Below, piece by piece: positions 10,618-12,117 of a DNA stretch of 41,204 bases. The translations under genes were made by a program, and so were the position numbers. Under the pieces are notes generated by a model. That model worked only from the letters and a program-made list of their open reading frames with translations. It had not been told where the DNA came from and ran no database searches. The stretch lies in the NCBI GenBank assembly GCA_001820095.1, contig MHOO01000009.1, positions 1 to 41,204 on the forward strand, given 5' to 3'. Source of the DNA: Candidatus Staskawiczbacteria bacterium RIFCSPHIGHO2_01_FULL_39_25 (lineage in GTDB: Bacteria; Patescibacteriota; Minisyncoccia; Minisyncoccales; Staskawiczbacteraceae). Each line of letters opens with the position of its first letter. Position 1 is the stretch's first letter.

Positions 10618-11001
10618 CTATATTTTCTCCGCTCGCCACTGTTCATTAACCCATAAAAGAATAATTTCTCCCCCAAATCCAAACGATTCAACGGTTTTTT
10701 TAGCTTTTTGCAAGTGCAAAAGCTGGATATCTTTTTCAACTGGATTCCCCGCGCACCCATGGTGCCCCACAATAGCCAGCACCGTGGCCCTATGATGGTG
10801 GAAAGAAATTCCCACTCTTGTTTTTATGTTCTCAATAATAGAGGAGTTAATATTTTCTGCCAAAATTTTATTGGGACCGGGTTCTGTCACCATATCCACA
10901 AAATCCACCTTGTAGGCATCTTTCATATAATTTTTAACCGCGTCTTGGACCCTGCCGTCCATGCAGTTAATAGCGCACGCAAATGTTTGTTTTGTTTCCA
11001 T
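10618..11001 (-). CDS. beta-carbonic anhydrase-like protein (short, 127 aa)
   Basis: CMDGR (CxDxR) near the N-terminus and GHHGCAGN (HxxC-type) later. Confidence 0.65.
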   Translation of the reverse strand: METKQTFACAINCMDGRVQDAVKNYMKDAYKVDFVDMVTEPGPNKILAENINSSIIENIKTRVGISFHHHRATVLAIVGHHGCAGNPVEKDIQLLHLQKAKKTVESFGFGGEIILLWVNEQWRAEKI

Positions 11002-11028: not shown

Positions 11029-11340
11029 AGGGGTGTGGGACTCGAACAGAACCACTTGAGCTCTCGTATATTGCTTGTATTCAAGGATTGAGGAATGAAA
11101 CGATGCCTTGCGCATCGTTTCATTCTGAATACGAAGAAGACAAGCAAGTGACAGAGCCCGAAGGGAAGCGAAAACAGAGATGATGTCTGCGTTGCGACTT
11201 CGGAAACATAGCGCAAGGCTATGTTTCCTCGTCGCGCCTTGACCTCATCTCTGTTTTCGAGGACGGGGCGAATTTGCTAAAGCAAATTACGCCTCGCGTC
11301 CCTACTTCTCAAGCTGGTTCTGTTCGAGTCCCACACCCCT
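11029..11340. ncRNA. highly structured 312-bp element closed by a 32-bp inverted repeat
   Basis: AGGGGTGTGGGACTCGAACAGAACCACTTGAG pairs with CTCAAG-C-TGGTTCTGTTCGAGTCCCACACCCCT; internal stems 11093-11106/11112-11125 (14 bp), 11169-11183/11245-11259 (15 bp), 11202-11212/11218-11228 (11 bp), 11271-11277/11282-11288 (7 bp). Confidence 0.75.
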
Positions 11341-12010
11341 AGGGGGCATCCACACGCAACACGGGCAAAACCCCTGATCCATTTACATAAATATTATTAG
11401 CAAAATACAGGTCAAGCGAAACTCTTACCGTATTATTTGCTAATGGCTCCAATGAAACCTCCCCTTTTAAAAGACTCCTCGCTACAAGCCCTTGATCTAG
11501 AGATTGGCCATTAAAATCACTTCTGCCTAGTGATGGATTGAATACATAGGTCGCTTTCTCAAAACTTTTAAAATTGAAAACGGTAATTTCCCTGATATGG
11601 GATGTATTGCTATCCTTCATCGCTATTACATAATCTTTGGGGCATGGATTTTGACCGCACGAAGCGCCCGAAGAGATAATTTCAAAATCACAAAATGTTG
11701 GCAAAAAATCTCCCCCGGTAACTTTAAGATTCATGCCGCAACTTGAAACCTGGCTATCTTGAGTTTCTTCTTTAGTGTTTTCTTGGTTAATTGTTTGAGT
11801 GTCAGCTCCTTTATTTTCATTATTTATATTTGATGCATCGTTATTAATAGCAGTATCAGTGACGCCTATATCTTGTTTTTTTTCATGCTGTGTTGCCACA
11901 GAAAACGGCTTCAGGTTTTTTATTTTTACCATATAATATATTCCGCTTCCCAAAAAAAACAATCCCGCAATTATTACTAATAACATTATAAATCCTTTTT
12001 GTTTATTCAT
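11339..12010 (-). CDS. hypothetical secreted or membrane-anchored protein
   Basis: N-terminal TM (GFIMLLVIIAGLFFLGSGIYYMV) then a low-complexity linker; C-terminus abuts the structured element. Confidence 0.65.
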   Translation of the reverse strand: MNKQKGFIMLLVIIAGLFFLGSGIYYMVKIKNLKPFSVATQHEKKQDIGVTDTAINNDASNINNENKGADTQTINQENTKEETQDSQVSSCGMNLKVTGGDFLPTFCDFEIISSGASCGQNPCPKDYVIAMKDSNTSHIREITVFNFKSFEKATYVFNPSLGRSDFNGQSLDQGLVARSLLKGEVSLEPLANNTVRVSLDLYFANNIYVNGSGVLPVLRVDAP

Positions 12011-12034
12011 AGCCGTAATCCTAAATTACTAAAG

Positions 12035-12117
12035 CGGAGGAGGTGGGACTCGAACCCACGAACCCCGAAGGGTCACGGTTTTCAAGACCGTTCTAATAGC
12101 CGCTATAGGACTCCTCC
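12035..12117 (-). tRNA. tRNA-Ser (anticodon TGA)
   Basis: Acceptor GGAGGAG/CTCCTCC; anticodon loop CTTGAAA; long variable arm; T arm GTGGGTTCGAGTCCCAC. Confidence 0.93.

Follow-up and report, generated by a model that had tools for sequence, protein, structure and literature searches.

The locus at 11029-11340 of the window, which is the whole stretch of 41,204 nucleotides analysed here, raises the question whether a long, hairpin-rich sequence between two genes of a Candidatus Staskawiczbacteria genome represents a structured RNA or a piece of mobile DNA. A preliminary description of this sequence had named both possibilities, namely an undescribed ncRNA and a non-autonomous mobile element. 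The element has no coding capacity and no endonuclease is encoded in it.

Anatomy of the element

The element lies, as already described, between a CA-like gene, for which a Pfam match was found, and the stop codon of the gene 11339-12010. Its parts and neighbours are listed below; the "forward" orientation of the family corresponds to the minus strand of the window.

11029-11340, minus strand: whole element, 312 bp, or about 267 bp once the nested hairpin is subtracted
11029-11060, no strand assigned: terminal inverted repeat (TIR), right end in forward orientation, with covarying pairs (helix 1)
11308-11340, no strand assigned: TIR, left end in forward orientation, with a bulged C at 11314
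11169-11259, minus strand: arm A, with stem 11169-11187/11241-11259 and apical hairpin 11203-11227, modelled as R1
11157-11165, minus strand: mini-hairpin CC-UUCG-GG between arms A and B, CCCTTCGGG on the minus strand, covariation helix 5
11066-11150, plus strand: arm B, an inverted and diverged copy of arm A, with apical hairpin 11097-11121; opposite-strand match to the arm-A model in relatives
11260-11304, no strand assigned: nested 45-bp hairpin insertion of a separate repeat family, TAGGGACG..CGTCCT on the minus strand, no target-site duplication
11339-12010, minus strand: upstream gene with no match in Pfam; its stop codon TAG (11339-11341) spans the element end
10618-11001, minus strand: downstream gene, putative carbonic anhydrase, Pro_CA_2 (PF20393)

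The closing inverted repeat was found as reported, with 11029-11060 and 11308-11340 pairing over 32 bp with one bulged C (32/33 nt, 97%; 26 bp perfect). The RNA fold of the element was computed at -186 kcal/mol for the plus strand and -183 for the minus strand, a stability far beyond chance (z = -17.5 and -17.8) that was reached by none of 100 shuffled sequences. All three long-stemmed arms of the preliminary description are present as well, but the third one (11260-11304) stands outside the basic element. It is absent from three near-identical copies (C11:154360, C11:250940 and C11:64982) and related hairpins stand alone elsewhere in the same genome (C7:28112, C11:17203 and C4:70975), and therefore it is a nested insertion of another repeat family. 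This small hairpin repeat has TAGGGACG..CGTCCT ends and a GGGGCGAATT stem, and its target is not duplicated.

The closing repeat had also been likened to a tRNA T arm. The shared sequence exists, since GTTCGAGTCCCAC is common to the window element and the neighbouring tRNA-Ser gene (12034-12117) and the T-arm-like GGTTCGAATCC is present in many TIRs of the family, but a T stem is not formed because the T-arm-like bases are already paired in the closing stem. Derivation of the TIR from a tRNA was rejected for the family as a whole, since unrelated TIRs occupy the same position in many members; in a single lineage a tRNA end may have been captured. The preliminary description had recognised no RNase P RNA, tmRNA, SRP RNA or group II intron, and an Rfam 15 scan of the window (gathering threshold) indeed matched tRNAs only. 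The matches in the relatives comprised only tRNA and the host 23S rRNA, and neither in the window nor in the relatives did the elements match a group I or group II intron.

Copies, relatives and insertion sites

The own genome (G000; 743 kb, 12 contigs) contains eight full-length copies including 11029-11340. Three of them (C11:64982, C11:154360 and C11:250940) are 99-100% identical to the window copy and 45 bp shorter, two are related (C11:242919 and C12:12221) and two are more distant (around C4:16186 and C11:198118). The flanks of the four copies that share 99-100% identity are mutually unrelated. A copy consisting only of TIRs was found at C4:16459-16514. It was considered as an empty target palindrome, but on one side some of the inner end is still there, and it reads better as a deletion derivative.

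Beyond this genome, the covariance model R1 built on arm A has matches in 12 of the 36 genomes of the host's taxonomic family and in 10 of 380 genomes sampled across the phylum Patescibacteria, with up to about ten copies per genome and many multicopy bearers. The plan of the family is constant and comprises a TIR of about 30 bp, arm A, the CC-UUCG-GG mini-hairpin, arm B and the second TIR, mostly within 267-280 bp. In relatives arm B fits the arm-A model on the opposite strand. This means that the two arms are inverted copies and that either strand is able to fold into the same T. A 21-base arm-B pattern gave 13 matches among 84,980 species genomes, all of them in Patescibacteria MAGs (the groups named are Staskawiczbacteria, Azambacteria and Wolfebacteria), and no match among viral contigs.

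Filled and empty sites were compared by aligning joined flanks with the intact loci of relatives. The element at G009:C2 splits AAAACCTTT^TGCCCTGTC (CCTTT^TGCCC) near a gene end, and this site is empty at seven loci (in G005, G006, G008, G010, G015 and G021 and at G000:C4:40687). The own copy at C11:250976 splits ATAGT^AGAGC, a site that is empty in six genomes, and G009:C12:114000 splits GGGTT^CACTC, which is intact in G003. For the element at G009:C12:79140 the junction is CTGCCC^AATGG, with CCCA^TAATGG suggested by the reading frame, and the flanks of the own copy C11:154360, once joined, continue in frame when read by eye. In the 23S rRNA gene one hairpin loop is filled in G017 and G018, representing two genera, and empty in G022, G041, G053 and G019. 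The preliminary description had regarded multicopy occurrence together with target-site duplications as the mark of a simple MITE; the copies are indeed numerous, but no duplication was found at the insertions compared with relatives. Its proposal of a non-autonomous mobile element is supported by the multiple copies, their unrelated flanks, the patchy distribution and the empty sites in relatives.

Insertions are mostly found at the ends of genes, often the 3' ends: 26 of 56 members contain the stop codon of an adjoining ORF, and the neighbouring genes are seldom divergent (3/44). The location at gene 3' ends may reflect a target preference or selection against harmful insertions.

Several sites deserve mention in their own right. 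The 23S hairpin loop after CGCCACTACTAAGGGAAT is a hotspot (L054, L107, L176-L180) that is occupied by the element family in two genera, and G000, G003, G004, G005 and G013 carry an apparently different, unrelated sequence at the same point of the loop. L102 (G009:C10:68136) splits a tRNA-like pseudogene immediately 5' to its T arm and is adjoined by an apparently intact tRNA gene. Roughly 450 bp separate L028 (G009:C12:114000) from the reverse transcriptase gene at G009:C12:112936-113535, perhaps part of a diversity-generating retroelement locus, and at the similar locus G009:C2:102912 a reverse transcriptase is found nearby, too. Further nesting was also seen: in L074 and L083 (G279) arm B hosts a 46-bp palindrome, TCCCGTTAGAAG..CTTCTAACGGGA, of a further nesting hairpin family, accompanied by a 4-bp CTCG duplication, in L023 (G018:C10:37014) another long hairpin, with CCCCCACACCAATTT ends, disrupts arm B, and in L026 (G037:C7) arm A contains a hairpin-bearing insertion of 44 nt with a possible 3-bp CAT duplication.

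Paired change and the question of DNA or RNA

The preliminary description had suggested a search for covariation in the stems and in a pair of complementary loops. The stems covary clearly. Across the 99 pairs compared in 41 distinct members, 87.1% of the cells are paired and 89 of the 99 pairs have changed on both sides, and the covariation score reaches 0.488 compared with 0.176 for shuffled and 0.08-0.13 for slid partners. In the TIR helix changes on both sides occur in 28 of 29 pairs. When members with at least 80% identical cores are considered, their TIR arms show 202 matched pair changes versus 79 expected if both arms changed independently; since the copies are related, these concerted changes, like the mismatches counted below, are not independent events. 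In one example the core is 92-93% identical while the TIRs differ by about 40%, and even copies with 97-100% identical cores still exhibit some paired TIR changes. Thus, the core is conserved and the TIR sequence is nearly free, while TIR pairing is maintained.

The complementary loops behave differently. The 9-nt complementarity is present in the window element as claimed, but the loop-loop match is not kept across members (3.5 nt with the own partner versus 3.4 nt with shuffled partners; 618 of 2000 shuffles were as good), which speaks against the kissing-loop interaction proposed earlier.

In the stem of an RNA under selection, G-U mismatches are expected to exceed A-C mismatches. In forward orientation the TIRs contain 54 G-T and 43 A-C mismatches (p = 0.31), and in the sense of the gene ending at the element the counts are 19 and 31, respectively. 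The arms, read in motif sense, have 55 G-T and 26 A-C mismatches (p = 0.0017), and this sense lies on opposite strands for A and B, as is expected if each strand offers one recognition hairpin. Member L103/L104, found once per strand due to its symmetry, was counted twice in part of these mismatch counts and once in the 41-member covariation, the TIR paired-change and the 56-element stop-codon counts. The closing stem shows no wobble signature, the arms are inverted copies and the loop match is not conserved, and so the ncRNA and kissing-loop readings are both unsupported. As far as can be judged from sequence comparison, the mismatch statistics and the unconserved loop match favour a DNA element.

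How the two TIRs remain complementary is a separate matter. Template switching during replication is a documented route by which hairpin arms are kept complementary (PMC8794818), and it has been documented for quasipalindromes of E. coli (PMC7202029). In the present family TIR complementarity would probably be kept by one arm templating the other, either through template switching or hairpin repair, together with selection for pairing. The fast but nearly always joint change of the TIRs offers a test case for whether selection on RNA or template switching on DNA lies behind covariation, a question that bears on the calling of new RNAs from stem covariation alone.

Candidate movers, rival explanations and known systems

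Five candidate families were tested as movers, namely Y1_Tnp, S23/IVP, RVT_1, Resolvase and IS110. Y1_Tnp/RAYT (PF01797) was rejected as obligatory partner since it has no match in the element-rich genomes G000, G004, G015 and G030, and the same holds for S23/IVP, which is missing from some element-bearing genomes, for Resolvase (PF00239; missing in G002, G008, G015, G030 and G254) and for RVT_1 (PF00078; missing in G002, G008, G030 and G254). IS110 (PF02371) occurs in none of the 20 tested element-bearing genomes. G030 has several copies and is devoid of all five families. A longer element with the same TIR was not found in the own genome, where close matches to the TIR motif are elements and one deletion derivative, and an exact 20-base TIR pattern had no match across genome contigs. 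The mover may have disappeared from these genomes, may be provided from outside or may be a member of another family such as the DDE transposases. As no autonomous relative and no mover was found among the tested families, we infer mobilisation only from its results.

These elements are dispersed, multicopy and patchy, they insert cleanly without duplication, and their T-fold is kept by two-sided changes. We consider that they are probably non-autonomous, quasi-palindromic mobile DNA elements of about 270 bp, here found only in Patescibacteria, with a mover supplied in trans. The mobilising machinery would recognise the folded single strand or a cruciform, and the conserved arm motifs would serve as recognition hairpins, one in sense per strand, as in REP dimers. 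For the TIRs pairing would suffice and sequence would not be needed, and the mover would act in trans. An element inserted behind a gene provides that gene with a stop codon and, at the 3' end, with a stable hairpin, and within rRNA it could persist as an intervening sequence. The combination of missing target-site duplication, TIRs that are sequence-free yet paired, and absence of a mover among the tested families is unusual. More tentative is the idea that the machinery itself is an as yet undescribed one belonging to Patescibacteria or their hosts, reading a T-shaped single strand by its shape and arm motifs, requiring only pairing of the closing stem and leaving no duplication, while the closing stem would be rewritten in both arms simultaneously during copying; we regard this as conceivable but doubtful.

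Among the alternatives, the transfer of a REP/REPIN-type element by a RAYT (Y1 HUH) transposase acting on single-stranded hairpins would account for two inverted hairpins with a short spacer, for the missing target-site duplication and for the strand bias of the arms in motif sense, and published REP dimers do sit inside long palindromes (PMC3733652). It is nevertheless rather unlikely, because Y1_Tnp is absent from the four genomes mentioned above, the arms measure about 90 nt instead of 20-40 nt and no terminal GTAG tag was recognised. A conventional MITE, derived by deletion from a DDE-type insertion sequence and moved by a transposase that binds the TIRs, would fit the size, the TIRs, the dispersed copies, the missing coding capacity and the intergenic preference. 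The checked insertions lack target-site duplications, though, and the TIRs diverge faster than the core, which is the opposite of what is expected for a TIR-reading transposase; on these two grounds the element is not an ordinary MITE. With no longer element of the same TIR in the own genome either, we regard this origin as improbable.

A structured ncRNA selected for its fold, either as riboregulator or as 3' stabiliser of mRNAs, could claim the exceptional stability, the strong covariation (also expected of a functional RNA), the UNCG mini-hairpin, the position behind genes and the two copies within 23S rRNA. We judge it very improbable, as the closing stem has no excess of G-U over A-C in either frame of reference, the inverted arms leave neither strand privileged, coding ends are interrupted, presence is patchy and Rfam gives no match. 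Finally, homing might have spread what is primarily a ribosomal intervening sequence, the genomic copies being by-products. The same 23S hairpin loop is occupied in two genera and rRNA genes of CPR bacteria are rich in insertions (PMC11270868), but almost every copy is located outside rRNA, there was no match to group I or II introns and no endonuclease is encoded, which makes this explanation hardly credible.

The genomes of Patescibacteria are tiny, and the family provides natural filled and empty sites for studying how palindromes move without duplication. Some of the long hairpins between their genes, and one kind of insertion in their 23S rRNA, are likewise accounted for by this family. 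In the part of the literature that was searched no description of such elements in Patescibacteria was found, which is weak evidence.

In integron attC sites the sequence may vary while the palindromic structure is kept, as expected for recognition of a folded single strand. The element likewise keeps its palindromic structure despite sequence change, but it carries no gene cassette, is much larger and has more arms. Bacterial MITEs such as ERIC, Correia, QMITE2 (found mainly at gene 3' ends) and Chunjie are similarly short, non-coding, bounded by TIRs and dispersed (PMC10969869), whereas here target-site duplications are missing and the TIR sequence is unconserved between close copies while the interior is conserved. 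The palindromic elements of Rickettsia (RPE; PMC10969869) resemble it as palindromes inside genes of a small genome; they keep an in-frame ORF, whereas the element of Patescibacteria supplies stop codons and truncates C-termini. With the intervening sequences of CPR 23S rRNA (PMC11270868) it shares two copies in a 23S hairpin loop, but most of the family lies in other parts of the genome, and no S23/IVP gene is carried by it.

REP units consist of a 20-40 bp palindrome with an unpaired GTAG or CGTC tag, the CGTC class having no known dedicated transposase, and dimers in long palindromes are represented by GTAG-15 of Anabaena variabilis and CGTC-1 of Halothiobacillus neapolitanus (PMC3733652). 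Many members of the present family have CGTC next to the arm-B apical hairpin, but there it does not form a terminal tag. These REP dimers, as non-autonomous inverted hairpin pairs in a long palindrome between tandem or convergent genes, are the nearest published arrangement (PMC3733652); the arms in Patescibacteria differ in being about 90 nt long with internal loops, and the closing palindrome moves together with the core and varies freely.
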